Shown here: positions 1 to 12,638 of the stretch, in pieces
Layout: every line of letters begins with the position of its first letter
Numbering within the stretch: the first letter of the stretch is position 1
Source of the DNA: Hyphomicrobiales bacterium
GTDB lineage: Bacteria > Pseudomonadota > Alphaproteobacteria > Rhizobiales > Rhizobiaceae
Length of the DNA: 40,459 nt
Reading direction: 5' to 3'
Assembly (NCBI GenBank): GCA_900467685.1
Contig: UBQX01000037.1
Span: 1-40,459 of the forward strand
The notes under the pieces: generated by a model
Database searches by the model: none
Told to the model about the DNA's origin: nothing
What the model saw: the letters and a program-made list of their open reading frames with translations, nothing else
Program-made: the position numbers and the translations under genes

Positions 1-152
1 CGCGCCGCGATCTCGTCGATGCGTGCGCCGGAAAGCCCGTTCTGCGAAAACTCCTCCAGCGCCACCGTGAGGATATCGCGACGCACACCTTCGGGGTCGC
101 GGACAGCGGTCTTCGCGTCTCTCGACTTTGCCGTGTCGGCAGCCTTTTTCAT
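1..152 (-). CDS. TetR-family regulator, N-terminal fragment (runs off window)
   Basis: Only the first ~50 codons are present, reading leftward from ATG at 152 with a G-rich Shine-Dalgarno (GGGGGG) just upstream. The translation begins MKKAADTAKS, has a basic low-complexity lead, and then GVRRDILTVALEEFSQNGLSGARIDEIAAR shortened here to its pattern: helix 1 of a TetR HTH (ILTVALEEFSQNG) followed by the conserved 'G...A.I.EIA.R' start of helix 2. It is divergent from quiC with an ~80-bp shared promoter region, so it probably regulates quiC. The ligand-binding domain lies outside the window, so the inducer cannot be inferred from sequence; dehydroshikimate, quinate or protocatechuate would be expected from context. 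Confidence 0.75.
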   Translation of the reverse strand, partial: MKKAADTAKSRDAKTAVRDPEGVRRDILTVALEEFSQNGLSGARIDEIAA

Positions 153-193
153 CGATTCCCCCCGAAAAGCCATGCAAATGCCGGCTTCGGCCT

Positions 194-210
194 CCAATTA
201 ACCAATTAGT
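194..210. promoter_or_regulatory. Candidate TetR operator between tetR and quiC
   Basis: The short divergent intergenic region contains a direct repeat CCAATTA (194-200 and 202-208). The right copy sits in a near-palindrome ACCAATTAGT (201-210; one symmetric mismatch pair). It lies ~26 bp upstream of the quiC start and ~42 bp upstream of the tetR start. Assignment as an operator is inferred from position and symmetry only. Confidence 0.35.
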
Positions 211-235
211 ACATAACGCAGGAAAGGATGGCAAT

Positions 236-2167
236 ATGGCATATCGCGATACCCGCCGGCAGCCGGTCCCCATGCAGACCTCGATTGCCACCGTGTCTAT
301 CAGTGGCGAATTTCCCGAAAAGCTGGCGGCCATCGCCAAGGCCGGCTTCACCGGTGTCGAGATTTTCGAAAACGACTTCCTGACCTATGACGCCTCGCCA
401 CGCGAAGTGGCGCAGATGGTCAAGGATCACGGGCTTTCGATCACGCTGTTCCAACCCTTCCGCGATTTCGAAGGCATGCCGGAACCGCAGCGCAAACGTA
501 CATTCGAACGGGCGGAACGCAAGTTCGAAATCATGGGCGAGCTTGGCACGGATCTCATGCTGATCTGCTCGAATGTCTCGCCGATCTCGCTCGGCGGCAT
601 CGATCGCGCAGCCGGCGACTTCCACGAACTCGGCGAGCTTGCCGCCCGGCACGGCGTGCGCGTCGGCTATGAGGCGCTGGCCTGGGGCCGGCATGTCAAC
701 GACCATCGCGACGCATGGGAGATCGTCCGCCGCACCGATCATCCGAATATCGGCCTCATCCTCGACAGTTTCCACACGCTGTCGCGCAAGATCGACCCGA
801 ACTCCATCCGCTCCATTCCCGGCGACAAGATCTTCATCGTGCAGCTTGCCGATGCGCCGCTCTTCGACATGGACCTGCTCTACTGGAGCCGTCACTTCCG
901 CAACATGCCGGGTGAAGGTGACCTGCCGGTGGTCGATTTCATGCGCGCGGTCGCGGCAACGGGCTATAGCGGTCCGCTGTCGCTCGAAATCTTCAACGAC
1001 CAGTTCCGTGGCGGCTCGGCCAAGGCCTTGGCCGAAGACGGACACCGCTCGCTGGTCAACCTCATGGATCGCGTGCGCCGGCTGGAGCCGGACATCGCCA
1101 TCGATGTTCCCGTCATGCCCGACCGCGTGGTCGCGAAAGGCGTCGAGTTCGTGGAATTTGCCACCTCGGAAGAGGAGAAGGACAATCTGGCAGCCCTGCT
1201 GACGACGCTCGGCTTCGCCAGGTCGGCCCGGCATCGGAACCGCGCTGTCGAGCTTTATACGCAAGGCGATATCCGCATCGTCATCAATACCGACAAGACC
1301 GGCGACACATTTGCCGATGCCTCCTATGCCGTCCACGGCACCAATGCCTATGCGTTCGGCCTGAAGGTGGACAATGCTCGGGATGCGCTTTCTCGTGCCA
1401 CGGCCCTCGGCGCTCCCGCTTTTTCCGAGGAGCGCAAGTCCGGCGAAGTGACCGTCCCGGCGGTGCAGGGCGTCGGCAACGGGGTCATCTATTTCCTCGA
1501 CGACACGCCGGAGCTTTCCGGCATCTGGGAACGGGAGTTCTCGTCGCTTCCCGTTGATGCTGCAGGCGCACATCTGACGCGCATCGACCATCTGGCGCAG
1601 ACGACGCAATATCAGGAAATGCTGACCTGGCTGCTCTTCTACCATGCGATCTTCGCGGTGCACCGAACGCCCATGGTGGACGTGGTCGATCCGGGCGGGC
1701 TGGTGCGCAGCCAGGCGATCGAAGGCGATCCGGAACCGGCCTTCCGCGTCACGATGAACGGGGCGGACAATCGAAAGACCTTTGCCGGCAAGTTCCTTGC
1801 CGAAGGCTTCGGCACGAGCATCCAGCACATCGCCTTTGCGACCGACGATATCTTCGCCACCGCCGCGCGGCTCAACGAGCTTGGTTTCCAGGCGCTGCCG
1901 ATTTCGCGCAACTATTATGACGATCTCGAAGCCCGCTTCGGTCTCGAGCCGGAATTCTCCGATGCGCTGCGCGCCGCCAGCATCCTCTACGATCGCGACG
2001 AAAAGGGCGAATATTTCCAGATCTACAGCCGCACCTTCGGCGAAGGCTTCTTCTTCGAAATCATAGAGCGGCGCGGCGGCTATGCCGGCTATGGCGCGAT
2101 GAACGCCCCTTTCCGGATCGCCGCTCAACGCCGCCTGGCAAGACCGGCGGGCATGCCCAAGCGCTGA
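236..2167 (+). CDS. quiC: 3-dehydroshikimate dehydratase (QuiC1-type, sugar isomerase/HPPD-like fusion)
   Basis: The 643-residue protein should convert 3-dehydroshikimate to protocatechuate in quinate/shikimate catabolism. Residues ~13-280 form an AP-endonuclease-2-like TIM barrel. The expected metal ligands are visible as E146 (GYEALAW), D177 (ILDSFH), Q203 (VQLAD) and E251 (SLEIFND). They keep exactly the spacing I recall for Pseudomonas QuiC1 (E134, D165, Q191, E239) with a constant offset of 12. Residues ~300-640 form a VOC/4-hydroxyphenylpyruvate dioxygenase-like half with a potential iron triad H452, H531, E608. I chose ATG 236 because AGGAAAGG lies 8 bp upstream. Family members start at the equivalent of Met13 (position 272, MQTSIATVS), which lacks a good ribosome site. 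The gene is monocistronic and divergent from a TetR gene. The role of the C-terminal half is not settled for the family, to my knowledge. Confidence 0.9.
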   Translation: MAYRDTRRQPVPMQTSIATVSISGEFPEKLAAIAKAGFTGVEIFENDFLTYDASPREVAQMVKDHGLSITLFQPFRDFEGMPEPQRKRTFERAERKFEIMGELGTDLMLICSNVSPISLGGIDRAAGDFHELGELAARHGVRVGYEALAWGRHVNDHRDAWEIVRRTDHPNIGLILDSFHTLSRKIDPNSIRSIPGDKIFIVQLADAPLFDMDLLYWSRHFRNMPGEGDLPVVDFMRAVAATGYSGPLSLEIFNDQFRGGSAKALAEDGHRSLVNLMDRVRRLEPDIAIDVPVMPDRVVAKGVEFVEFATSEEEKDNLAALLTTLGFARSARHRNRAVELYTQGDIRIVINTDKTGDTFADASYAVHGTNAYAFGLKVDNARDALSRATALGAPAFSEERKSGEVTVPAVQGVGNGVIYFLDDTPELSGIWEREFSSLPVDAAGAHLTRIDHLAQTTQYQEMLTWLLFYHAIFAVHRTPMVDVVDPGGLVRSQAIEGDPEPAFRVTMNGADNRKTFAGKFLAEGFGTSIQHIAFATDDIFATAARLNELGFQALPISRNYYDDLEARFGLEPEFSDALRAASILYDRDEKGEYFQIYSRTFGEGFFFEIIERRGGYAGYGAMNAPFRIAAQRRLARPAGMPKR

Positions 2168-2231: not shown

Positions 2232-3170
2232 TCAGGCGGACGCGATCGCCGCCTGCGGCGCGGCCGGCACCTGTCGGTTCATCCAGTCGGCGGCAGTGCG
2301 GATGCCACCGAGGGGGAAGACATGGACCTGTGAGATCAGGCTGTCCGGGTGGCGTGCCTTGTATTGCGCAAGGCCGCTGACGACTTCGGTCGGTTCATAG
2401 GGCGCGAGCAGCCGCGTTACGTCCATCGCGCGCTTCTGCAAGACCTTCAGCGAGGGGCCGACGCCGCAAGCCAGCGCAAACTGGATCAGCGTTTGAAGTT
2501 TTGCAGGTCCGGCAATGCCGACATGGATGGGCAGGCTGACGCCGAGATCGGCAATGCGTTCGGCCCAAGCGGTAACGGCGGCAGCATCAAAGGCGAACTG
2601 GGTGACGATGGCCATTTTGGCGTCCGTTCGCGCGGAAAAGTCCTGCTTCCACATAAGGCTCGCATCGACCCCGGCGGTCGTCCCATCCGTGTCGATGTCG
2701 CGATTGCCCTCCGGGTGGCCGGCGACATGCAAGCGCTTGAAGCCATGGCGGTCGAAAATGCCCGTTTCGATGAGTTGGATGGCGCTGTCCAGCGTGCCTT
2801 CGGGCTTTGTTACCCCGCCGCCCAGCAGCAGTGCTTGCGTAACGCCCGCCTCCTCGCGATAGCGCCGCACCCATGTTTCAAGCGTTGCCACATCCGGGAT
2901 GATCCGCGCCGGAAAATGCGGCATGACCGGGAAGCCTTCATCCGTCAGACGACGCGCGGTTGCCAGCATGTCCTCGAAGGGAGTCCCGGCGATATGGGCG
3001 ATATAGACACGCGTTCCGGCGGGTAGCAGCGCGCGGAAGCTTTCCACCTTTGCCGCCGTGCGCGGCATGACTTCGATCGACCAGTTATCGATGAAGGACG
3101 CGGCCTCCGGATCGAGATCGGGGGGTGATGCCTTGGCGTCGGTGCGACTTCCGAAATTCAAAAAAGCCAT
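2232..3170 (-). CDS. metF: Methylenetetrahydrofolate reductase family protein (MetF-like)
   Basis: The 312-residue protein is a TIM-barrel MTHFR-family flavoprotein (5,10-methylene-THF / 5-methyl-THF interconversion). Visible family features are SIEVMPRTAAKV near residue 31 (where canonical MetF has an E-x-x-P segment), HFPARI, LLGGG, HPEGNRD (flavin/folate region), KQDFSARTDAKMAIVTQFAFD (here only as a pattern: T-Q-F-x-F-D) and a P-I-H-V-G-I-A-G-P loop. It is divergent from purU and near ligM, and its promoter carries a TGTATACA operator. A LigM-type demethylase yields 5-methyl-THF, so the inferred job is to oxidise that product to methylene-THF. It is probably a paralogue of the housekeeping MetF used for methionine synthesis. 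The start at 3170 is an ATG preceded by GGAGGAG-type ribosome site (CTCCTCCTC on the plus strand at 3176-3184). Confidence 0.82.
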   Translation of the reverse strand: MAFLNFGSRTDAKASPPDLDPEAASFIDNWSIEVMPRTAAKVESFRALLPAGTRVYIAHIAGTPFEDMLATARRLTDEGFPVMPHFPARIIPDVATLETWVRRYREEAGVTQALLLGGGVTKPEGTLDSAIQLIETGIFDRHGFKRLHVAGHPEGNRDIDTDGTTAGVDASLMWKQDFSARTDAKMAIVTQFAFDAAAVTAWAERIADLGVSLPIHVGIAGPAKLQTLIQFALACGVGPSLKVLQKRAMDVTRLLAPYEPTEVVSGLAQYKARHPDSLISQVHVFPLGGIRTAADWMNRQVPAAPQAAIASA

Positions 3171-3196: not shown

Positions 3197-3227
3197 ATGT
3201 ATACATCAAGATTGTCACAACAATCAA
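3197..3227 (-). promoter_or_regulatory. ATGTATACAT operator overlapping the metF promoter
   Basis: A perfect 10-bp palindrome ATGTATACAT lies at 3197-3206, 27 bp upstream of the metF-like start and within the metF/purU divergent region. Read on the minus strand, its TATACA core fits a -10 box with TTGATT (3222-3227) as -35 at an 18-bp spacer, so a bound regulator would block polymerase. The same sequence recurs upstream of gntR, ligM and the liv-type binding protein gene. A degenerate copy (ATGTGTACG, 3282-3290) lies closer to purU. Confidence 0.7.
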
Positions 3228-3364
3228 TATGCCGGTTAAAATGGCCATAAAGGCCAGAATTGAGCGATAAGTCCTTTTGGAATGTGTACGCTGGCCGGTG
3301 AGGCATGCAGGGGCTGACGGGGGCGTGGGAGCGCAACCCTGGTCTGTCACGAGGGAGGAAAGAC

Positions 3365-4213
3365 ATGACCGACTATATTCTGACGCTACGCTGCGCCAAT
3401 CGCAGCGGCATCGTGGCCGCTGTTGCGGTTCGGATCGCGACCCATGGCGGCGACATTTTCGAGGCGCATCAGTTCGACGATCCGGAAACCGGCATGTTCT
3501 TCATGCGGGTAGCCTTCTCGATGGCGGAGCCGGAAGCGGCCTTCCGTGCCGGCATCGCGCAAGAGGTGGAGCGCTTTGGTCTCGACCTGACGCTGCGGGT
3601 TGCCGGAAAGCGGCGCAAGGTTCTGCTCATGGTTTCCCGCTTCGACCATTGCCTCGGCGATCTGCTTTACCGGATGCGGATCGGCGAACTGAATATGGAG
3701 GCCGTCGGCATTATCGGCAATCATCCGCGCGAGGCGCTGAACCTGACGCTGATGGAAGGCATTCCCTACCATCATCTGCCGGTCACGAAGGAGACCAAGG
3801 CGGCGCAGGAGGCGGAGGTGCGGCGGATCGTTGAGGAAAGCGGGGCCGAGCTTGTCGTTCTGGCGCGCTACATGCAGGTGCTGTCCGACGAGCTTTCGGC
3901 CTTTCTTTCCGGTCGCTGCATCAACATCCACCACTCCTTCTTGCCGGGCTTCAAGGGCGCCAAGCCCTACCATCAGGCGCACGCGCGCGGTGTGAAAATG
4001 ATCGGCGCGACGGCCCATTACGTCACCGGCGATCTCGATGAGGGGCCGATCATCTGTCAGGATGTCGAGCCGGTCAGCCATGCCGACACGCCGGAAGAGC
4101 TGGTGGGCAAGGGGCGCGACATCGAGCGCCGGGTTCTGGCCCGCGCCGTGACCTGGCATCTGGAGGATCGCGTTTTGCTGAACAAGCACAAGACGGTCGT
4201 TTTCGCCAAATAG
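3365..4213 (+). CDS. purU: Formyltetrahydrofolate deformylase
   Basis: PurU hydrolyses 10-formyl-THF to THF plus formate. The 282-residue protein has the expected N-terminal ACT-like regulatory domain (residues 1-80, YILTLRCANRSGIVAAV) and a C-terminal formyltransferase fold (~85-282). The catalytic Asn-His-Asp set is visible as N187 and H189 (INIHHSFLP) and D225 (GDLDEGP), and the KGAKPYHQA loop is intact. The start is ATG 3365 with GGGAGGA five bases upstream; an earlier in-frame ATG at 3305 has no ribosome site. Its position between metF and gntR/ligM suggests it regenerates free THF for the demethylase and releases the methyl carbon as formate, rather than serving only purine balance. That role is inferred from context. 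Confidence 0.92.
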   Translation: MTDYILTLRCANRSGIVAAVAVRIATHGGDIFEAHQFDDPETGMFFMRVAFSMAEPEAAFRAGIAQEVERFGLDLTLRVAGKRRKVLLMVSRFDHCLGDLLYRMRIGELNMEAVGIIGNHPREALNLTLMEGIPYHHLPVTKETKAAQEAEVRRIVEESGAELVVLARYMQVLSDELSAFLSGRCINIHHSFLPGFKGAKPYHQAHARGVKMIGATAHYVTGDLDEGPIICQDVEPVSHADTPEELVGKGRDIERRVLARAVTWHLEDRVLLNKHKTVVFAK

Positions 4214-4229
4214 GCGACGCATCGCGCCA

Positions 4230-4239
4230 ATGTATACAA
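4230..4239 (+). promoter_or_regulatory. TGTATACA operator upstream of gntR
   Basis: The 8-bp palindrome TGTATACA (4231-4238, flanked A/A) lies in the purU-gntR gap, 71 bp before the gntR start. It shares the core of the 10-bp sites at 3197, 5160 and 11579 and would give autoregulation. The conserved GT...AC arrangement is typical of operators bound by FadR-subfamily GntR proteins. Confidence 0.65.
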
Positions 4240-4309
4240 GTTGCCCCCGAGGCGCTTCGCAGCCGCCTCTGCGAATGCTATAGCAATGGCGTGAATGGGG
4301 GATCCAAGC

Positions 4310-5041
4310 ATGAAAGTCAGCGAAGCTGCCACCCATGGCCGCAGGGCCGTGATCGAATTGCGCGAGAAGATCGTCAGCGGCGAATTGCCGGGCGGGATGC
4401 GCCTTTTCGAGGTGTCGCTGGCCGAAAAGCTCGAGATTTCGCGCACTCCCGTGCGCGAGGCGCTGTCGCGGCTGGCGGAGGAGGGGCTTCTCGACCGTTT
4501 GCCGAATGGCGGCTTCGTCGTCCGCCGCTTCGGCTATGAGGACGTGATCGATTCCATCGAGCTGCGTGGTGTCATGGAAGGCACGGCCGCGCGCCTTGCC
4601 GCCGAGCGGGGCGCTTCGCCGGAAGGCCTGGCGCGGCTTCATGAGATCGTCGAGAAGATCGATGTCTGTTTTGGGGAGGGCGATGAGGTGGATTTCGACG
4701 CCTATTCCGACCTCAATGAGGATTTTCACCGCGAGCTGGCCGGGCTCTGCGGCAGCGAGATGATCCGCCGCGAGGTGGAGCGCGCGTCGGCGCTGCCATT
4801 CGCCTCGCCGTCGGCTTTTCTCCCCAACCGAATGGAAATCGCCGCCTTTCGCCGCTCGCTGCGCTCGGCGCAGGAGCAGCACAAGGCAATCGTCAACGCC
4901 ATTGTCGGGCGCGAAGGCGCGCGGGCGGAATTCGTGGCGCGTGAACATGCGCGTACGGCCCGGCACAACATTGAATACATTTTCAACAAGGACCCGGATC
5001 TCCTGGCCAAGATCCCCGGACTAGCCCTCATTCACCGCTAG
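4310..5041 (+). CDS. GntR-family regulator (FadR/FCD subfamily), VanR-like by context
   Basis: The 243-residue protein has an N-terminal winged helix (residues ~10-75: IVSGELPGGMRL, LAEKLEISRTPVREALSRLAEEGLL, NGGFVV). This is followed by an all-helical FCD effector domain (~80-215) whose metal/ligand residues are visible in LNEDFHREL, AQEQHKAIVNAI and EHARTARHNI. ATG 4310 is preferred because GGGGGA lies 7 bp upstream; the ATG at 4295 has no ribosome site. It sits between purU and ligM, and four TGTATACA sites flank it and its neighbours. I infer it represses the O-demethylation and transport genes and is released by a (methoxy)aromatic acid. The effector itself cannot be read from the sequence. 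Confidence 0.88.
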   Translation: MKVSEAATHGRRAVIELREKIVSGELPGGMRLFEVSLAEKLEISRTPVREALSRLAEEGLLDRLPNGGFVVRRFGYEDVIDSIELRGVMEGTAARLAAERGASPEGLARLHEIVEKIDVCFGEGDEVDFDAYSDLNEDFHRELAGLCGSEMIRREVERASALPFASPSAFLPNRMEIAAFRRSLRSAQEQHKAIVNAIVGREGARAEFVAREHARTARHNIEYIFNKDPDLLAKIPGLALIHR

Positions 5042-5159
5042 AGCCCGTAAAACAGCGGGCTTGCGTGGCCTGGTGCGCTGAATACGTCATCCTTTTGTCG
5101 CCATGTCGCGCCACTCTCCCTGAAAAAGAGGCTTGCATTCTGCGCGTCAATCGGCATGA

Positions 5160-5169
5160 ATGTATACAT
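5160..5169 (+). promoter_or_regulatory. ATGTATACAT operator upstream of ligM
   Basis: A perfect ATGTATACAT palindrome lies 28 bp before the ligM ATG (5198). A spurious upstream ATG at 5156 would place the operator inside the coding region; the strong GGGAGG site at 5185-5190 shows translation starts at 5198, leaving the palindrome in the untranslated leader or promoter. It is identical to the sites at 3197 and 11579. Confidence 0.7.
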
Positions 5170-5197
5170 AACAGCTTTGCTAATGGGAGGAACCACG

Positions 5198-6610
5198 ATG
5201 GCTGCATCCAGTCTGTCCGATATCATGAAAGAGAATCCCGACATTGTCGGGCGCCTGCGCAATTCCAAGATCGGCATGTATGTATACCCGGTCGTGGCTC
5301 CCGAGTTCGCCAACTGGCGGACCGAACAGGCCGCCTGGCGCCATTCGGCCGTGCTCTTCGACCAGTCGCACCACATGGACGAACTGATTGTCGAAGGTCC
5401 GGATGCGGAAGCATTCCTTGCCTATCACGGCATCAACGCGTTTTCGAATTTCGGCCTCAACCGCGCCAAGCATTTCGTGCCGGTCACGCCGAACGGCCAT
5501 GTCATCGGCGACCACATCATCTTCCGCGAGCGCCAGGACAAGTTCATCCTCGTCGGCCGCGCGCCGACGTCCAACTGGCTGATGTTCTGCGCTGCCTATG
5601 GCAAGTGGAATGTCCGCATCAAGCACGATCCCCGCTCGCCGTCGCGCCCTGAAGGCGAACGCGTCTTCCGCACGCATTACCGCTACCAGATCCAGGGACC
5701 TGAGGCGAACAAGATCTTCGAAAAGCTGAACCGCGGTCCGATCCCGGACATCAAGTTCTTCCATGTCGATCACATCAATATCGGTTCCAAGAAGGTCCAG
5801 GCGCTGCGTCACGGCATGTCCGGCGCACCGGGTCTCGAAATCTGGGGTCCTTATGACGACAAGAACTATATCCTGAGCTGCATTCTCGAAGCCGCCAAGG
5901 AAGCCAATGTCGATCTCGTGCGCTGCGGCAGCCGCGCCTATTCGACCAACACGCTGGAATCCGGCTGGATCCCGTCCCCGCTGCCGGGGATCTATACCGG
6001 CGACGGCATGCTGGCGGCCTATCGCGAGTGGCTGGGCGCAGACTCCTACGAAGCCACCGGCGCGATCGGCGGCAGCTATGTCTCGGACAATATCGAGGAC
6101 TATTACGTCAACCCGTTCGAGCTCGGCTATGACTTCTACATCGGCTGGAAGAAGGACGACTTTATCGGCAAGCAGGCTCTGCTGAAGATGAAGGAGCAGA
6201 AGAACCGCAAGAAGGTGACCTTCGAGTGGAACGCTGAAGACGTCGTCGAAGTCATCGCGTCTGCCTTCAAGCCGGGTGAAGACCACTACAAGTGGATCGA
6301 CTTCCCGCAGCCGAACTATGCCTCGACCAGCGCCGACCTGATCCTCGACCAGAGCGGCAAGCGCGTCGGCATGTCGATGTTCAACGGCTATTCCTACAAC
6401 GAACGCTGCCTGCTTTCGCTGGGCATCGTCGATCAGGATATCAACGAAGGCGACGTGCTGACGCTGGTATGGGGCGAGCCGGATGGCGGTTCGGGCAAGA
6501 CCTCGACCGAGCGCCACAAGCAGGCCAAGATCCGCGTCCGCGTCTCGCCGACGCCCTACGCTCGCGAAGCCCGCGAGAACTATGCCGACAGCTGGCGCAC
6601 CAAGCGCTGA
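5198..6610 (+). CDS. ligM: Tetrahydrofolate-dependent aryl O-demethylase (LigM-like, GcvT family)
   Basis: The 470-residue protein matches the Sphingobium LigM family (vanillate / 3-O-methylgallate O-demethylase) along its full length, which is ~471 residues. It should transfer the methoxyl methyl group to THF, giving a catechol (protocatechuate or gallate) and 5-methyl-THF. Segments shared with LigM as I recall it include YVYPVVAPEF, NWRTEQ, VPVTPNGHVIGD, GAPGLEIWGPY, NTLESGWIPSPLP, YTGD and EDYYVNP. Active-site positions I recall for LigM are retained: Y28, Y30, R121, E214 and Y248. ATG 5198 has GGGAGG 7 bp upstream. The neighbouring metF-like and purU genes handle the methyl product, and a strong terminator follows at 6675. 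The exact substrate (vanillate, syringate, 3MGA or another methoxybenzoate) is not determined. Confidence 0.88.
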   Translation: MAASSLSDIMKENPDIVGRLRNSKIGMYVYPVVAPEFANWRTEQAAWRHSAVLFDQSHHMDELIVEGPDAEAFLAYHGINAFSNFGLNRAKHFVPVTPNGHVIGDHIIFRERQDKFILVGRAPTSNWLMFCAAYGKWNVRIKHDPRSPSRPEGERVFRTHYRYQIQGPEANKIFEKLNRGPIPDIKFFHVDHINIGSKKVQALRHGMSGAPGLEIWGPYDDKNYILSCILEAAKEANVDLVRCGSRAYSTNTLESGWIPSPLPGIYTGDGMLAAYREWLGADSYEATGAIGGSYVSDNIEDYYVNPFELGYDFYIGWKKDDFIGKQALLKMKEQKNRKKVTFEWNAEDVVEVIASAFKPGEDHYKWIDFPQPNYASTSADLILDQSGKRVGMSMFNGYSYNERCLLSLGIVDQDINEGDVLTLVWGEPDGGSGKTSTERHKQAKIRVRVSPTPYAREARENYADSWRTKR

Positions 6611-6674
6611 TAACAAGGAGCCGGCGTGGCGCGCGAGCGTTGCGCCGGACTTTCTGTTGGATGAAGAGACACGG

Positions 6675-6709
6675 ACACCGAAGGCGCAAGACGCTTTCGG
6701 TGTTTTTTT
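6675..6709 (+). terminator. Rho-independent terminator of ligM
   Basis: A 12-bp stem with one G-U pair (6675-6686 with 6692-6703), a 5-nt CAAGA loop and a run of seven T starts ~65 bp past the ligM stop. It is the clearest intrinsic terminator in the window. Confidence 0.88.
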
Positions 6710-6748
6710 GTGTTTGTTCGAGCTGCTTTCGCGGCGGATCCCCCTATT

Positions 6749-6893
6749 CTCCGCCATCCCGGACTAGATCCTGGATCTAGCCAGTTCGCGTCTGCTGGCT
6801 GAAAGGGCTCATTCCCTGAATGCTCTGCAAGAAGAGTATCCCGCGCGATGGACATCGCGCACTGGATGCCGGATCAAGTCCGGCATGACGGAG
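6749..6893. repeat. RIME/MITE-like mosaic palindromic element
   Basis: The two ends of this 145-bp segment are imperfect inverted repeats of each other: CTCCGCCATCCCGGACTAGA... at the left matches CTCCGTCATGCCGGACTTGA... read inward from the right end. Internally it holds three local hairpins: CTAGATCC/GGATCTAG (6764-6780), GCGCGATG/CATCGCGC (6843-6860) and ATGCCGGA/TCCGGCAT (6866-6886). It lies between the convergent ligM and livF genes and contains no credible ORF. The architecture recalls the rhizobial intergenic mosaic elements (RIME) and short non-autonomous transposon relics. With ligM's terminator it accounts for the 315-bp gene-free stretch 6611-6925. Confidence 0.65.
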
Positions 6894-6925
6894 TTGAGGC
6901 GGACGCCGGTTTCAAAAAGAAGCCC

Positions 6926-7627
6926 TCACGCCACGCTGAGCAACCCCTCCAGCCTTTCCGGATCGTCCAGGAGCGCCTGCGAGGTCCCCCGGTAGCTCAC
7001 CGCACCGCGATCCAGAACCACGGCCTCGTCGGTCAGCGGCAGGATCTTGCGTGCCTTCTGCTCGATGATGATTGCCGACATGCCCTCGTCTCTCACGATA
7101 CGACGCAGCGCTGACAGCAATTCATCGACAATGATCGGAGCTAGGCCTTCCAGAGGCTCGTCGAGCAGAAGCAGCTTCGGGTTCAGCATCAGCGCTCGGG
7201 CGACGGCGAGCATCTGCTGTTCACCGCCGGAGAGCTGGTTGCCCATGTTGCGCCGGCGTTCCTTCAGGCGTGGGAACATCTGGTAGGCGCGCTCCAGCGA
7301 CCAGGGGCCGGGGCGGGCGGTGGCGGTGAGGTTTTCCTCGACCGTCAGGGAGGCGAAGATGTTGCGCTCCTGCGGCACCCATCCGATGCCAAGCGGCGCA
7401 CGCTGTTCGGGCCGCAGGCGGCTGATGTCGCGACCATCGAAATGGATGGCGCCGGCATGGTGCGTCGTCACGCCGGCAATTGTGTCCACCAGCGTCGTCT
7501 TGCCCGCGCCGTTGCGTCCGAGCAGCGCCAGGGACCGACCGGCCTCAACGGCAAGATCGACATGGGAGAGCACCCGCGCCTCTCCATAGCCAGCGACCAG
7601 CTTCTCGATGCGGAGCAGGGCGGTCAT
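6926..7627 (-). CDS. livF: Branched-chain-type ABC transporter ATPase (LivF)
   Basis: The 233-residue ATPase has Walker A GRNGAGKTT, Q-loop region WVPQERNIF, signature LSGGEQQ, Walker B LLLLDEP and the LivF-typical EGLAP sequence after it; the switch position reads IIEQK, as usual for LivF. ATG 7627 overlaps the livG stop by one base (TGATG), with GGAGG 7 bp upstream; a GTG at 7630 is an alternative. It is the last gene of the unit binding protein-livH-livM-livG-livF. As one of two nucleotide-binding subunits it would power uptake of the solute captured by the binding protein at 10296-11465. The TGTATACA-controlled promoter suggests an aromatic acid rather than leucine. Confidence 0.93.
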   Translation of the reverse strand: MTALLRIEKLVAGYGEARVLSHVDLAVEAGRSLALLGRNGAGKTTLVDTIAGVTTHHAGAIHFDGRDISRLRPEQRAPLGIGWVPQERNIFASLTVEENLTATARPGPWSLERAYQMFPRLKERRRNMGNQLSGGEQQMLAVARALMLNPKLLLLDEPLEGLAPIIVDELLSALRRIVRDEGMSAIIIEQKARKILPLTDEAVVLDRGAVSYRGTSQALLDDPERLEGLLSVA

Positions 7628-8370
7628 CACGCATCCTCCCCGAGATAGATGGCCTTGACCTGCGGGTCGCGGGAGATTTCTTCAACAGAGCCTTCAGCAA
7701 AGAGGGCGCCGGCAGCGAGCACCGAGATGCGGTCGGCGAAGGAGAAGACGAGGTCCATGTCGTGCTCGATGAGCACCACGGTGACGTCTTCGGGCAGCGC
7801 GCGGACAATGCCCAGAACCTCCTCGCGTTCCTCCTCGGGAACGCCCGCCGCCGGTTCGTCCAGCAGGAGCACTTTCGGTCGCGCGGCGATGGCGAGGGCA
7901 ATTTCCAGCAGTCTTTGCTTGCCATATGGCAGCAATCTTGTCTCTTCCGACATTACGTCAGCCAGACGGAAGCGTTCCAGTGTCGTAACGGCCTCTTCCG
8001 CCACCTCGCGGTCGGCAGCGAGCGGTTGCCAGAACCGGCGGCCGTGGCCCTTGCGTTCGCCGATGGCCAGCATCATGGAATCGAGCGGCGTGAAATCGGC
8101 GAAGAGCTGGTTGATCTGGAAGGTGCGTGACAGACCGCGCGCTACACGCGCGTGAGCGGGCAGCGCCGTGATGTCCTCGCCGTCGAGGAAGATCTGTCCG
8201 CTGGTCGGCGCGAAGACCCCGGTGAAGAGGTTGATCAGCGTCGTCTTGCCCGCCCCGTTCGGTCCGATCAGGGCGTGGCGCGCACCCTGTCTAATAGAAA
8301 GGGAAACGTCATGCGTAGCGGTGAAGCCGCCGAAACGCTTGACCAGGTTTCGAGTTTCGAGCGCCATCAT
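7627..8370 (-). CDS. livG: Branched-chain-type ABC transporter ATPase (LivG)
   Basis: The 247-residue protein is the second ATPase of the transporter. Walker A is GPNGAGKTT, Walker B LLLDEPAAG and the switch histidine lies in LIEHDMDLVF. FGGFTATHDVSL and GLSRTFQ are LivG hallmarks. The ABC signature is unusual: where LSGGQ or LSYGQ is expected the sequence reads LPYGKQRLLEIA, a variant found in LivG proteins (L-x-Y-G). The start ATG at 8370 (ATGATG) overlaps the livM stop by four bases (ATGA), indicating translational coupling. Confidence 0.92.
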   Translation of the reverse strand: MMALETRNLVKRFGGFTATHDVSLSIRQGARHALIGPNGAGKTTLINLFTGVFAPTSGQIFLDGEDITALPAHARVARGLSRTFQINQLFADFTPLDSMMLAIGERKGHGRRFWQPLAADREVAEEAVTTLERFRLADVMSEETRLLPYGKQRLLEIALAIAARPKVLLLDEPAAGVPEEEREEVLGIVRALPEDVTVVLIEHDMDLVFSFADRISVLAAGALFAEGSVEEISRDPQVKAIYLGEDA

Positions 8371-9368
8371 CGCGCGGCCTCCCCCGTCCTGCTCTTGAGC
8401 CGGGCCGCCAGCAAGGCAGGCCAGCCCGTCAGCCTTTCGCGGCCGATCATGACGATCGCGACCAGGATGAGGCCGATCCAGAACATCCAGTATTGCGGAG
8501 TGGCCACTGAGAGCCAGTCGCGGAGCATGGTGAAGATGATCGCACCGAAAATGCCGCCATAGAGATAGCCGGCGCCACCGATGACGAGAACGAGGAGCAC
8601 GTCGGCCGAGCGATGGAACGCGAGAACGTCCGGCGACACAAAATTGGTCGTCTGCGCGAGCAGCGCCCCTGCCATGCCGGCATAGGCGGCGGAGACGGCA
8701 TAGACGGTGACAATGCGACGTTTCGGCGAGATGCCAAGCATTGCGGCGCGGCGCGGGTTGCGCTTGATCGCCATCAGCGACAGGCCGAAGGGCGAGTTGG
8801 TGATGTGGCGCGCGACGAATGTCAGGACAATCAACACGACAAGGCAATAGATGTAGCCGTTGCGGCCCCAGAGATCGAATTCGAAGAGGCCCAGAATAGG
8901 CGTCATCGAAATCCCCGAAAGGCCGTCTGCCCCGCCGGTAAGCCAGGCGGCCTGATTGCCGAGTTCGGCAAGCAGCATGGCGACGCCGAATGTGGTCATG
9001 AGGCGGGTAAGGTCCGAGCCACGCAGTACAAGGAAACTCGTGGCGAGCCCGAAGAGGCCGCTGACCAGGCCGGCGAATACAAGCCCCGTGACGGGCTCGG
9101 CCACATAGTCGCGTGCGAGGATGCCGGCTGCATAGGCCCCAAGCCCGAAAAATGCGGTGTGGCCGAGTGACACGATGCCGGCATAGCCGAGGATCAGATC
9201 GAGCGACACCGCGAACAGTGCGAGGATGACGATCTCTGTCAGGATCAGCAATTGCGAGGGAAGCAGGAAGATCGCAGCGATGGCGGCGAGCCAGAGAGCG
9301 ATTTCCCATACGCGCCAGCGGTGTTTGGCAGTCAGCAGCCTGAGAGCATGAGCCTGATGATCGGTCAT
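8367..9368 (-). CDS. livM: Branched-chain-type ABC transporter permease (LivM)
   Basis: The 333-residue inner-membrane permease has the LivM core sequence DLILGYAGIVSLGHTAFFGLGAY (quoted here in two parts: DLILGYAGIVS, LGHTAFFGLGAY) and about nine hydrophobic segments. The cytoplasmic coupling region contains AIKRNPRRAAMLGI, the expected ATPase-contact motif. The start ATG 9368 has GGGAGGG 6 bp upstream and overlaps the livH stop by four bases. LivM pairs with LivH to form the channel. Confidence 0.93.
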   Translation of the reverse strand: MTDHQAHALRLLTAKHRWRVWEIALWLAAIAAIFLLPSQLLILTEIVILALFAVSLDLILGYAGIVSLGHTAFFGLGAYAAGILARDYVAEPVTGLVFAGLVSGLFGLATSFLVLRGSDLTRLMTTFGVAMLLAELGNQAAWLTGGADGLSGISMTPILGLFEFDLWGRNGYIYCLVVLIVLTFVARHITNSPFGLSLMAIKRNPRRAAMLGISPKRRIVTVYAVSAAYAGMAGALLAQTTNFVSPDVLAFHRSADVLLVLVIGGAGYLYGGIFGAIIFTMLRDWLSVATPQYWMFWIGLILVAIVMIGRERLTGWPALLAARLKSRTGEAAR

Positions 9369-10225
9369 CGCCCACCCTCCCGCGTGAAGAGGCCGTTGGG
9401 GCGCAGGATCAGAACCAGGATCATTACCGCATAGATGATGAAGGCGCCGGCCTGTGGCAGGTAATATTTACCCGCGACATCGGCAATGCCGAGAAGGAGT
9501 GCGGCGATGAAGGGGCCGGTGATCGAGGACGTGCCGCCGACGGTGACGACGATCATGAAATAGATCAGGAACTTCAGCGGAAAGTTCGGGTCGAGGCCCA
9601 GCATGTCCGCACCCAGCGCGCCACCCAGCCCGGCAAGCCCGGAGCCGAGCGCAAAGGTCAGCACGAAAATGGTCGAGACATTGATGCCGAGCCCGCGCGC
9701 CACGCGGCCGTCATCGACAGCGGCGCGAAGCTGGCTGCCGAAGCGCGTGCGGGTCAGCGCGAGCTGAAGTGCCACGGCGAGTATGGCGCAGATAACGATG
9801 ATGAAAAGCCGGCTTCGGCCGATGCCGATCCCGAAGACATCCAGCCTGCCGCGCAGTTCGGGGGGCAGATTGATAAGCTGCTGCTGGCCACCCATGAAAT
9901 AGTCTGCCGCAGCAATCGCCATGAAGACGAGACCGATGGAGAAGAGAACCTGATCCAGATGGGAGGCGCGGTAAAGCCGGCGATAGAGCGTGACTTCAAG
10001 AGCCGCGCCGATCACGGCCGTGGCGATAAAGGCCGCCGGAAGGCACAGGTAAAACGGGATGCCATAACGGTTCATCAGCACCACGGTGACGTAGCCGCCC
10101 GCCATGGCGAAGGCACCATGGGCGAGATTGACGAAGTTCATCAGCCCGAGCGTGATCGACAGGCCGCAGGCCAGAATAAAAAGCAGCATTCCATAGGCAA
10201 TGCCGTCGAACAGGATCGTCAGCAT
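9365..10225 (-). CDS. livH: Branched-chain-type ABC transporter permease (LivH)
   Basis: The 286-residue permease has the LivH signature near its N-terminus (GLSITLGLMNFVNLAHGAF) and again VGGTSSITGPFIAA before the last membrane spans, plus the coupling motif RAAVDDGRVARGLGIN. It ends LRPNGLF, the usual end of LivH/LivM permeases. A GGGAGAG ribosome site lies five bases before ATG 10225. It follows the binding-protein gene by 70 bp, a gap that contains a strong hairpin (10244-10265). Confidence 0.93.
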   Translation of the reverse strand: MLTILFDGIAYGMLLFILACGLSITLGLMNFVNLAHGAFAMAGGYVTVVLMNRYGIPFYLCLPAAFIATAVIGAALEVTLYRRLYRASHLDQVLFSIGLVFMAIAAADYFMGGQQQLINLPPELRGRLDVFGIGIGRSRLFIIVICAILAVALQLALTRTRFGSQLRAAVDDGRVARGLGINVSTIFVLTFALGSGLAGLGGALGADMLGLDPNFPLKFLIYFMIVVTVGGTSSITGPFIAALLLGIADVAGKYYLPQAGAFIIYAVMILVLILRPNGLFTREGGR

Positions 10226-10243
10226 GGTCTCTCCCGGTTACAC

Positions 10244-10265
10244 GGCGGGGCGCGAGTGCCCCGCC
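10244..10265 (-). terminator. Hairpin between binding-protein gene and livH
   Basis: A perfect 8-bp GC stem (GGCGGGGC at 10244-10251, GCCCCGCC at 10258-10265) with a 6-nt loop sits just after the binding-protein stop. There is no T-tract, so it likely protects the upstream mRNA from 3' decay or attenuates transcription. Either would leave more binding protein than permease, a common arrangement in ABC operons. Confidence 0.5.
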
Positions 10266-10295
10266 GCCGGCTTCGGAAAGATCGGCGATCTCAAA

Positions 10296-11465
10296 TCACT
10301 TGGCGACGAAGGGATCGTGGATCTTCTTGAAGGTCGAGAACTCGACATTGTAGAGTTCGCCGTCCTTCTTCTCGACCTTGCGGATGTAGATATCCTGCAC
10401 GATGTCGCGCGTGGCGGGGTCGATGGAGATGGGGCCGCGCGGGCTTGTCCATTCCATGCCCTTCATGGCGGTGATCAGCTTCGTGCCGTCCGTGTCGCCA
10501 TTCGTCTTCGCAAGCGCTGCGTAGGCAAGATGCATCGCGTCAAAGCCGCCGACGGCCATGAAGTTGGGGCGCATCTTGGCGGCGTCCTTCACCTGCTTCA
10601 CGAAAGCCTTGTTCTCCGGGCTGTCATGGTCTGCCGAATAGAAATGTCCGGTGATGACGCCAAGCGCAGGATCGCCAATGGCGCCCAGCAGGTCGTCATC
10701 GGTCACGTCGCCCGTTGCGATCAGCTTGATGCCGGCATCTGCCAGACCCCGATCAACGAACTGCTTCATGAACAGCGAGCCAACGCCGGCCGGCACGAAG
10801 ACGAAGACTGCATCCGGCTTGGCATCGCGCACGCGCTGAAGGAAGGGCGCGAAATCGGGGTTTTGCAGAGGCACGCGCACAGCCTCGACGATCTCGCCAC
10901 CATCCTTCTTGAACTGGTCGGTGAAGCCCTTCTCGATGTCATGTCCCGGCCCATAATCGGTGACCAGCGTCACGACGCGCTTCAGGCCGTTCTGCGCTGC
11001 CCACGTGGCGACGGGCACGGCAGATTGCGGCCCGGCCATGGAGGTGCGTACATAATAGTCGGATTTCGACATGATGGCCGAGGTCGTGGCTGACGTGATG
11101 ATTGCGGGTACCTTCGCCTGGCTGATGACAGGGGCGACCGCCATGGCCAGCGGGGTAAGCCCGAAGCCCATGAGCATCGAGACCTTGTCGTTGACGATCA
11201 GTTCCTGCGCGATACGGCGCGTCTGGTCTGCCGTACCCGCGTCGTCACGCAGGACGATCTCGACCTTCTTTCCGCCCGCGGTGTCGCCGTTCAGTGCCAT
11301 GTATGCACGAACGCCGGCTTCAACCTGCCGGCCGGTCGAGGCAAAAGGTCCGGTCATGGGCAGGATGAGGCCGATTTTGACCGTATCGGCGGCCATTGAC
11401 GGCACTGCCGTGGACAGCATGGCAATGGCTGCGGCGCTAGCAATAAGATGACGTCTGGTGATCAT
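10296..11465 (-). CDS. Periplasmic ABC substrate-binding protein (Leu/Ile/Val-type family, probable aromatic-acid ligand)
   Basis: The 389-residue protein is a type I periplasmic binding protein (peripla_BP_6). It opens with a signal MITRRHLIASAAAIAML...SMA-ADT, whose RR-x-L-I pattern could use Tat, and the mature part begins VKIGLILPMTGPFASTGRQ. ATG 11465 is preferred over ATG 11471 because GGGAGG lies 8 bp before it but only 2 bp before the other. It heads the livHMGF operon. HAAT-family binding proteins include many that take aromatic acids such as benzoate, vanillate or ferulate. Because its promoter carries the same ATGTATACAT site as ligM, I infer a methoxylated aromatic acid ligand. 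Leucine-type amino acids cannot be excluded. Confidence 0.88.
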   Translation of the reverse strand: MITRRHLIASAAAIAMLSTAVPSMAADTVKIGLILPMTGPFASTGRQVEAGVRAYMALNGDTAGGKKVEIVLRDDAGTADQTRRIAQELIVNDKVSMLMGFGLTPLAMAVAPVISQAKVPAIITSATTSAIMSKSDYYVRTSMAGPQSAVPVATWAAQNGLKRVVTLVTDYGPGHDIEKGFTDQFKKDGGEIVEAVRVPLQNPDFAPFLQRVRDAKPDAVFVFVPAGVGSLFMKQFVDRGLADAGIKLIATGDVTDDDLLGAIGDPALGVITGHFYSADHDSPENKAFVKQVKDAAKMRPNFMAVGGFDAMHLAYAALAKTNGDTDGTKLITAMKGMEWTSPRGPISIDPATRDIVQDIYIRKVEKKDGELYNVEFSTFKKIHDPFVAK

Positions 11466-11578
11466 GTGCATTTCCTCCCGTTTGTCGTTGCGACAAGCAG
11501 ATCGCCGACGGCAGGGCCGTGACGGAAAGGCGCTCCTCCAAGCACTTTCCTCCAGCGATCACTCCATGATGGCTGGCA

Positions 11579-11607
11579 ATGTATACATACATATCAGGGG
11601 TGCACAA
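11579..11607 (-). promoter_or_regulatory. ATGTATACAT operator/promoter of the liv-type operon
   Basis: A perfect ATGTATACAT lies at 11579-11588, 114 bp upstream of the binding-protein start. On the minus strand the TATACA inside it is a plausible -10, with TTGTGC (plus-strand GCACAA, 11602-11607) as -35 at a 16-bp spacer. It is the same palindrome as at metF and ligM, linking this transporter to the GntR regulator at 4310-5041. Confidence 0.68.
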
Positions 11608-11739: not shown

Positions 11740-12426
11740 TCATGCCTCGGCAGCTTCAGGGCTGTCGGAGGTCGCGGGGGCGACCAGCTTTTCCAGCATG
11801 CCGCCGAACAGCCAGCCAACCTGCCGGAACAGCATGTCCTGAGAGACACGGTCCTCCTCGAGTGCCAGTTCGTCGATGATATAGGCAAATTCAACAATAA
11901 TGCGGACGCGCATCCACAATGTGTCCGGCGGCACGTCAGGCGCCAGTTGCTTCACGGCTTCAAAGATCTGGTCGGAATAGATCCGCTGCCATTTGAGCCT
12001 CAGATGCGCCAGATTCGGCAGCGCGCGCAGAGCCCGGATCGTCCACATGCCGCTCGGTTCCTGCGCTGCAATCTGCGCGGCCGCCTCGAACAGCTTTTCC
12101 ATCGCATGGTGTGACGGAAGCCTGCTGCCGTTTTCGGAAAATTCCTTGAACCAGGCTAGAAAGTTGTCATGCTGCTTGCGCATCAGCCGGTCGGCGAGTT
12201 CTTCCAGAACTTCGTATTTGTTGTTGAAATAGTGGTAGAAGGCCGGTGGTGTAAGGCCCGCGCGTGCGCAGATTTCGTTGGATGTCAGCTTCTCGAAGCC
12301 GGTATCTGCCAAAACATCCGCCGCGGCCTGTAACAGCTTCTCGAAATTGGCCGTTGCGCGTGCATGCGTCGGACGTCGTGTCCGCGCGCTGCGCTTTGGC
12401 TTCTTCGTATTTGCATCTTTGGTCAT
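11740..12426 (-). CDS. TetR-family transcriptional regulator
   Basis: The 228-residue protein starts with a highly basic, disordered lead (MTKDANTKKPKRSARTRR). A TetR HTH follows (FEKLLQAAADVLADTGFEKLTSNEICARAG split here for length: helix 1 LLQAAADVLADTGFE, HTH LTSNEICARAGLTPPAFYHYF, then NKYEVLEEL). The rest is a helical ligand domain I cannot assign. I chose ATG 12426; the frame stays open to 12630, but that extension (68 residues, starting right after the TonB-receptor stop) looks unlike coding sequence for this family. It sits between the haem receptor and the liv operon on the same strand. Its target could be either neighbour or itself. The 212-bp gap to the receptor stop shows no other gene. 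Confidence 0.75.
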   Translation of the reverse strand: MTKDANTKKPKRSARTRRPTHARATANFEKLLQAAADVLADTGFEKLTSNEICARAGLTPPAFYHYFNNKYEVLEELADRLMRKQHDNFLAWFKEFSENGSRLPSHHAMEKLFEAAAQIAAQEPSGMWTIRALRALPNLAHLRLKWQRIYSDQIFEAVKQLAPDVPPDTLWMRVRIIVEFAYIIDELALEEDRVSQDMLFRQVGWLFGGMLEKLVAPATSDSPEAAEA

Positions 12427-12638
12427 GAACGGATCTCGAGATCGAGGCAAGGCATCCCGAACGTGGGCGCTCGCATCAGGCCCGGTCCGGGCGTCGAGGT
12501 TCAGGTGATCCGCGAAGGCATATAGCGTCAGGTCTGGGAGGTCAAAGGGGATGCTGTCTGCCCATCCGACCTCGGCGCTGAAGGCGGCGGATACCAGGGG
12601 TGAGTTCCCCCTGATATCCATGTCAATCACGTCGGCTC

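Follow-up and report, generated by a model that had tools for sequence, protein, structure and literature searches.

The window analysed here is the whole 40,459-nt stretch from a Hyphomicrobiales bacterium (contig UBQX01000037.1), and the subject of this work is a core locus of 9 kb, from metF to a transporter, in which genes of one-carbon metabolism and O-demethylation, a gntR regulator gene and a five-gene ATP-binding cassette (ABC) transporter of the liv type are accompanied by copies of one short palindrome. The metF gene lies on the minus strand and is followed by purU, gntR and ligM on the plus strand and by the livF-livG-livM-livH-binding protein series on the minus strand (Table 1). 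The LigM protein matches the solved structure 5x1i with an E value of 4.2e-167; DesA, the syringate O-demethylase, was also considered for this gene and rejected (NF047633, 555.1 bits, below the cut-off of 800). A phmmer search with the metF-like protein led to 7xg9, named '5,10-methylenetetrahydrofolate reductase' (E 1.8e-43).

Table 1. Genes and regulatory sites of the locus (window positions).
Feature	Position	Strand	Remarks
metF-like gene, methylenetetrahydrofolate reductase	2232-3170	-	probably SYK-6 type; counterpart of Atu1418
Operator ATGTATACAT	3197-3206	.	between metF and purU; covers -10-like TATACA of metF (TTGATT-N18-TATACA)
purU, formyltetrahydrofolate deformylase	3365-4213	+	NCBIfam TIGR00655, 316.9 bits, cut-off 285.95, passed
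Operator variant ATGTATACAA	4230-4239	.	upstream of gntR; one mismatch
gntR, Atu1419-type (VanR group, FCD) repressor	4310-5041	+	176/239 aligned residues identical to Atu1419 (PDB 6z74 and others)
Operator ATGTATACAT	5160-5169	.	upstream of ligM
ligM, tetrahydrofolate-dependent vanillate/3-O-methylgallate O-demethylase	5198-6610	+	NF047885, 646.8 bits, cut-off 580, passed
Second, imperfect operator ATGTATACCC	5280-5289	.	inside ligM (codons TAT GTA TAC), 110 bp after the first; corresponds to the atu1420 degenerate palindrome
livF-type ATPase	6926-7630	-	resembles ABC ATPases in general; below cut-off for UrtE (217.9 bits) and for LivF (175.6 bits)
livG-type ATPase	7627-8376	-	PF00005, PF12399
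livM-type permease	8367-9368	-	PF02653
livH-type permease	9365-10225	-	PF02653
Periplasmic binding protein, aromatic-acid (benzoate-derivative) type	10296-11471	-	216/363 aligned residues identical to the 4ey3/4eyg/4eyk protein
Candidate auxiliary operator GTGCATACAT (gene direction)	11299-11308 (11308-11299)	-	inside the binding-protein gene
Operator ATGTATACAT	11579-11588	.	binding-protein promoter; covers -10 TATACA (11585-11580)
-35-like box TTGTGC	11602-11607	-	binding-protein promoter; 16 bp from TATACA

The 8-bp palindrome TGTATACA occurs only four times in the window, at 3198-3205, 4231-4238, 5161-5168 and 11580-11587, and three of the copies extend to the 10-mer ATGTATACAT, the fourth (start 4230) reading ATGTATACAA. 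Exact counting thus confirmed the positions and the three longer copies given by the original prediction, a note made from the letters of this DNA, but its chance figure of 0.2 copies per 40 kb was too high: 100 dinucleotide shuffles of the window gave a mean of 0.04 and a maximum of 1, and the whole genome (5,054,318 bases in 43 contigs, 99.99% complete) contains six copies. The two copies elsewhere (C30:44556 and C33:41917) are located within open frames, in AT-rich sequence, so the frequent occurrence at unrelated promoters that would have spoken against a regulon is not seen. The prediction that all four sites are intergenic holds if ligM starts at 5198, a start which aligns with known LigM and is preceded by the ribosome site GGGAGGA; a mechanical open reading frame from 5156 would include the site at 5160. 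With up to one mismatch, ATGTATACAT is found 24 times in the genome versus 11 times for the reversed control.

The GntR protein is 73.6% identical to Atu1419 of Agrobacterium fabrum and scores above the Pfam gathering thresholds for PF00392 (59.6 bits) and PF07729 (65.8 bits). The DNA-contact residues E34, R45, T46 and R49 are kept, with Asn at the position of the wing residue Gly66, and so are the zinc and effector residues R86, Y133, N137, H141, H192, H214, N221, S169 and R183, with K175 replaced by Arg. In an alignment of 31 members E34, R45, T46, R49, R86, Y132, N136, H140, H191 and H213 (window numbering) are invariant. The available parts of the Atu1419 paper (PMC7797058) describe a crystallised operator that is exactly ATGTATACAT, present twice in the atu1418-atu1419 interval and once ahead of atu1420, as well as a degenerate palindrome inside atu1420, 109 bp downstream of the first site, which was bound in electrophoretic mobility shift assays (EMSA). 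According to the same parts, Atu1419 is tetrameric, electron microscopy shows loops at the metF-gntR region, and the effector, established by EMSA, differential scanning calorimetry and isothermal titration calorimetry, is N5,N10-methylene-tetrahydrofolate (methylene-THF). As an ortholog of Atu1419, for which the same operator has been published, the window protein is likely to be the regulator of the sites described here.

The tests proposed in the original prediction assume that vanillate or a similar aromatic methoxy acid, instead of methylene-THF, is the effector of this repressor. This is in line with the statement that GntR proteins often respond to a substrate or intermediate of the pathway under their control, but in the accessible parts of the same paper THF, methyl-THF and pathway intermediates did not release Atu1419 from DNA whereas methylene-THF did, and citrate appears as a ligand mimic contacted by the effector residues (PMC7797058). 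These citrate-contacting residues are kept in the window protein apart from the Arg replacement mentioned above, and their core set does not vary among the 31 relatives. We consider an aromatic effector unlikely. Because pathway intermediates did not free Atu1419 from its DNA, the proposed tests with vanillate, syringate, ferulate and protocatechuate would probably show no release in vitro.

The regulator, its operator and effector, and the core targets are already known. With the A. fabrum regulon (SpG8-1b: atu1418, atu1419 and atu1420), as described in the available parts of the paper (PMC7797058), the window shares the regulator, the 10-bp operator, targets of the metF type and a THF-dependent O-demethylase, a site at the regulator's own gene, and an imperfect second operator about 110 bp downstream inside the demethylase gene. 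It differs in having purU between metF and gntR and a five-gene transporter of the aromatic-acid type with an operator of its own; the phrase 'ABC transporter' is absent from the main text of the Atu1419 paper in its available form (PMC7797058). The DesR/LigM/MetF system of Sphingobium SYK-6, according to the accessible parts of its description (PMC6888825), likewise carries out LigM-type vanillate demethylation, but its regulator is of the MarR type, unlike the GntR/FCD protein of the window. New here are the importer and purU as members, the operator kept by codon choice within ligM, and the breadth of the regulon.

This breadth was mapped in relatives. At order level 23 of 397 genomes have a match to the regulator (E 1e-70) and at family level 65 of 394 (E 1e-75), counting the genome of the window. 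Besides the window, the mapping set comprised 80 stretches drawn from 61 ortholog-carrying genomes, out of 84 other matching genomes (64 + 20), weaker matches being left out. Gene starts in relatives were estimated from tblastn alignments, a strict site was defined as the 10-mer with at most one outer mismatch and an intact core within 300 bp upstream, and genes with less than 120 bp of upstream sequence (the L097 binding-protein gene among them) were omitted from the upstream counts. A strict site precedes 61 of 64 ligM genes, in each of 27 genera, at an almost constant distance (25-49 bp, mostly 34-40 bp). It was also found at 27/37 metF, 40/65 gntR and 5/19 purU genes, at 13 of 22 binding-protein genes close to that of the window (>=60% identity; 6/8 genera) and at 11 of 19 more distant ones (43-48%; 8/11 genera), and at none of the operon-internal liv genes. 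None of 29 control palindromes of the same composition came up more than once in a target class, and in LivH the highest count was 2.

Counts of the exact 8-mer within 300 bp upstream gave the same picture, with 62/64 for LigM, 28/37 for MetF, 44/65 for GntR, 5/19 for PurU and 16/22 for the close binding proteins, and 0/38, 0/38, 0/37 and 0/38 for the operon-internal LivF, LivG, LivM and LivH; eleven palindromes of the same letters occurred at most once in any class. In the distant binding-protein class the 8-mer count was 16/19 and became 19/25 with six added genes: 23 places were found, 17 of which entered the first count together with two located by tblastn, and the remaining six, added later, comprise three with and three without the 8-mer, the latter in two g5 genomes. 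ATGTATACAT is present in 57 of the 61 genomes with the ortholog versus 29 of 80 without a match at threshold, and perfect sites number 156 in the former (2.6 per genome; reversed control 15) versus 35 in the latter (about 0.44 per genome). Where the genes are scattered (L086/L142, L087/L143, L091/L144 and L133/L151), the metF, ligM and binding-protein genes found there each keep their own sites; in L133/L151 metF and ligM have one, and purU in L144 and L133 and gntR in L133 are without. Absence of the motif from orthologous loci, named beforehand as an outcome that would refute the regulon, was thus not observed, as the sites recur at ligM, metF, gntR and binding-protein genes across genera. 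In two stretches (L121 and L124) gntR stands between two copies of ligM, both of which have a perfect site of their own; a split in substrate range, vanillate versus 3-O-methylgallate or syringate, is possible.

Inside ligM the imperfect operator ATGTATACCC, not mentioned in the original prediction, is found unchanged in 48 of 64 homologs. Each of these 48 belongs to the 61 that also have a strict site upstream, and the three homologs lacking such a site do not carry it. The codon for Val29 is GTA in 49 of 63 ligM genes, whereas the highest count among 23 other conserved Val columns is 8/64, and the Tyr before it is encoded by TAT in 62/64. Since GTC or GTG would give the same protein, the DNA itself is apparently under selection, and the in-gene operator appears to be kept by synonymous codon choice across Rhizobiales. 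In a codon scan blind to the motif, the YVY codons of ligM (z about 4.9) formed the strongest window shown beyond the first ten codons, two start-proximal windows being higher. Counting in-gene near-sites by mismatch was unspecific: in LigM one control palindrome, presumably dictated by the amino acids, reached 53/64 and the operator 48, in MetF and GntR the best control and the operator were level (7 and 14), and the counts were 4 versus 6 for the control in the distant and 11 versus 9 in the close binding proteins. The codon test alone is decisive here. The conservation of these codons is evidence from evolution that the in-gene site, described in vitro for A. fabrum, is of importance in the living cell, and it makes the proposed DNA loop at ligM open to direct test by synonymous mutation.

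A candidate counterpart, GTGCATACAT, lies in 11 of 13 strictly sited close binding-protein genes and in 0/10 others, and its Ala column has GCA in 11/16 sequences while the other 32 conserved Ala columns reach at most 6/16. Its window was outside the six top windows shown in the blind scan and its spacing from the upstream site, 259-287 bp start to start, has no constant phase, so that it is only a lead.

Membership of the transporter in the regulon is supported by the shared operator and also by gene co-occurrence. Close homologs of the binding protein (E <=1e-160, identity >=64%) were detected in 21 of 394 family genomes, 20 of which are among the 65 with the regulator (Fisher p 2.6e-16, uncorrected for relatedness). 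In the exception, G469, the binding protein stands beside a more distant GntR (47%), with no core there; G764 likewise has a distant type of regulator (54-55%), and its binding-protein gene showed no core next to it. The joint control of demethylation and uptake put forward in the original prediction therefore gains support from the shared operator, its recurrence across genera and the identity of the regulator, although neither regulator nor operator is new. No paper linking a transporter to this regulator was found in the open-licence literature, a weak negative as subscription literature lies mostly outside it.

The proposed overlap with a -10 box holds at the binding-protein promoter (TTGTGC-N16-TATACA, 11607 to 11580, minus strand), and metF is consistent with it. 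When 16 binding-protein promoters were aligned, 12 had TTG 16 bp before TATACA, which indicates that the operator covers the -10 box; the spacer at metF is 18 in 14/28, and in the distant binding-protein class TTG is found at 14-15 bp in at most 13/16. At ligM TTG is 24-26 bp away in at most 42/62, so that the operator would sit just downstream of the -10 box. If the four palindromes were no more than ordinary -10 boxes or coincidences in AT-rich promoters, this would agree with their location in promoters and the fit of TATACA, but these genes have hardly any other palindrome of the same letters upstream, the genome has only two further copies, the in-gene copy constrains codons, and the 12 binding-protein promoters that carry a perfect site have kept it, together with CTTGT, between diverged flanks. 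This explanation has hardly any probability left. Alternatively, another regulator could use the transporter site, either a second FCD-GntR protein or the TetR protein encoded upstream of the binding-protein gene (11740-12630, minus strand). Other GntR proteins bind related palindromes, but the site co-occurs with the Atu1419-type regulator, and the TetR gene is found in none of the 80 other stretches (40% identity, half coverage), which makes control by another protein very unlikely.

With respect to the substrate, a model of the binding protein built from a 41-member alignment (mean pLDDT 89.9) gave 4eyg and 4ey3 as best Foldseek matches, both at 60% identity (TMq 0.88-0.89), followed among solved structures by 4evs/RPA0985 and 4f06 with 43-44%; the distant binding-protein class is also nearest to 4ey3 (one member compared). 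The title of 4ey3 names p-hydroxybenzoic acid, that of 4evs has 4-hydroxybenzo..., and that of 4eyg is legible to 'in complex with v', which we take to be vanillic acid. LivK (branched-chain amino acid; NF011933, 68.2 bits, cut-off 477) and UrtA (urea; TIGR03407, 88.4 bits, cut-off 492.75) were tried as assignments and rejected. The aromatic-acid binding proteins of R. palustris (4ey3/4eyg/4eyk, 4evs = RPA0985, 4f06) thus have the same fold at 43-60% identity, and in the open-licence passages available we noticed nothing that ties them to a repressor sensing one-carbon units. An aromatic acid of the (hydroxy)benzoate type is well supported as the ligand by sequence and model, and this gives a substrate class, for two binding-protein lineages at once, to a transporter otherwise annotated as branched-chain amino acid or urea uptake. 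Of the aromatic methoxy-acid ligand originally predicted, 'aromatic' is probably right given the 60% identity to aromatic-acid-bound R. palustris proteins, whereas specificity for methoxy acids is not established; vanillate, which bears a methyl group, would be the choice consistent with the regulator.

It is also conceivable that the transporter stands under this regulator and yet takes up a broad range of hydroxybenzoates (4-hydroxybenzoate, protocatechuate, vanillate), with methyl sensing as one of several inputs. The titles of the nearest solved relatives agree with this, and in the accessible parts of a thermal-shift screen RPA0985 was strongly stabilised by 4-hydroxybenzoate (PMC3223731). 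Adjoining metF, moreover, is a gene for a QuiC-like 3-dehydroshikimate dehydratase with an HPPD-like part (window positions 128-2167; 646.6 bits, below the cut-off of 1200), with no TGTATACA near it, whose enzyme would be a further source of protocatechuate. The binding-protein gene, in contrast, is tied to the ligM regulator by its site and by co-occurrence in 20 of 21 genomes, from which a methyl-carrying substrate is predicted. We give the broad range an even chance; it is compatible with the reading preferred here.

That reading, to which we assign a probability of about 85%, is an Atu1419-type regulon enlarged by an importer, in which a repressor sensing methyl flux controls both uptake and demethylation. 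The tetrameric GntR protein would sit on ATGTATACAT palindromes over or abutting the -10 regions of metF(/purU), gntR, ligM and the binding-protein gene and keep expression low; at ligM it would also hold the second operator, within the first 30 codons, probably by looping the DNA. Once vanillate or another methoxylated aromatic acid has leaked into the cell, residual LigM would transfer its methyl group to tetrahydrofolate, MetF would convert methyl-THF to methylene-THF, and the latter would loosen the repressor, upon which importer, demethylase, one-carbon oxidation step, deformylase and regulator would rise together. What the cell reads would then be methyl-group flux rather than the aromatic compound, and it would open the gate accordingly, which shows how uptake of a methylated substrate can be coupled to the capacity for methyl disposal. 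The sequences show the sites and their conservation, which protein the regulator is, the co-occurrence of the genes, the constraint on codons and the family of the binding protein. We infer from the comparisons above that the window GntR behaves like Atu1419, that vanillate-like acids are imported, and that looping at ligM occurs in the cell.

Several observations weigh against this. The strict site is missing at 9/22 close and 8/19 distant binding-protein genes, and the 8-mer at 6/22 and 6/25 of these, respectively, and at 9/37 metF, 21/65 gntR and 14/19 purU genes. A. salinitolerans (L028) has metF-gntR-ligM with sites and no such transporter within the 20.7 kb read, and uptake is therefore not an obligatory part. 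The counts are not independent events because the family genomes are related, and the stretches were chosen around the regulator or the binding protein, four of them (L150, L151, L160 and L161) around or beside a known site; L151 adds one sited ligM. The window metF stays far below the standard MetF model TIGR00676 (26.9 bits, cut-off 293.7). Finally, the closest solved relative of the binding protein (4ey3/4eyg/4eyk) has also given crystals with p-hydroxybenzoate, a compound without any methyl group that could be sensed, so that 'methoxy' rests mainly on the company of LigM.

Perfect sites outside the five gene classes were looked at in 20 stretches, among the matches listed. In genus g92 ATGTATACAT precedes folD (L193), pcaD/pcaQ (L187) and, in two genomes (L189 and L194), what appears to be one and the same aldehyde-dehydrogenase gene; outside this genus, in L196, it lies at or just before the start of a methionine-synthase-like gene. 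This suggests that folD, pcaD and methionine synthase are further members in relatives, which would widen the regulon to one-carbon oxidation and ring cleavage. Other perfect sites, at a polysaccharide gene, GMC oxidoreductase, EamA, MFS and SDR genes and a ferredoxin, leave membership unproven, and three are within long frames or unclassified genes. The individual extra sites are uncertain, mostly single cases, and some must be background since ortholog-free genomes hold about 0.44 perfect sites each. A wider generalisation, to which we give slightly less than even odds, is that across Rhizobiales one methylene-THF-sensing repressor gates uptake and demethylation of methoxylated lignin acids through operator pairs whose second member is written in codons (in ligM clearly, in the binding-protein gene possibly), that the importer was recruited more than once (two lineages about 45% identical), and that some lineages add folD, pcaD, aldehyde dehydrogenase and a methionine-synthase-like gene.

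In L203 a gene for a TRAP-transporter binding protein is preceded by two perfect sites (L203:1999 and 2013) at a distance of 14 bp, and in L197, L204 and L205 sites are near ferredoxin-like genes, of which that in L197 has Fer2 and those in L204 and L205 no Pfam family; these suggest that other uptake or demethylation systems were drawn into the regulon. Sister modules with a GntR paralog (47-55%) and a binding-protein paralog (64-70%) were found in L149, L181, L182 and L183, the first also with a LigM paralog (59%) and purU. No operator was present at the genes looked at in these modules, which are perhaps a parallel system with another operator. In the genome of the window itself, two one-mismatch operators 211 bp apart (C17:210293 and C17:210504; L022) are located in the gap before a response-regulator/chemotaxis gene set; no further support was found for this pair, which is probably due to chance.

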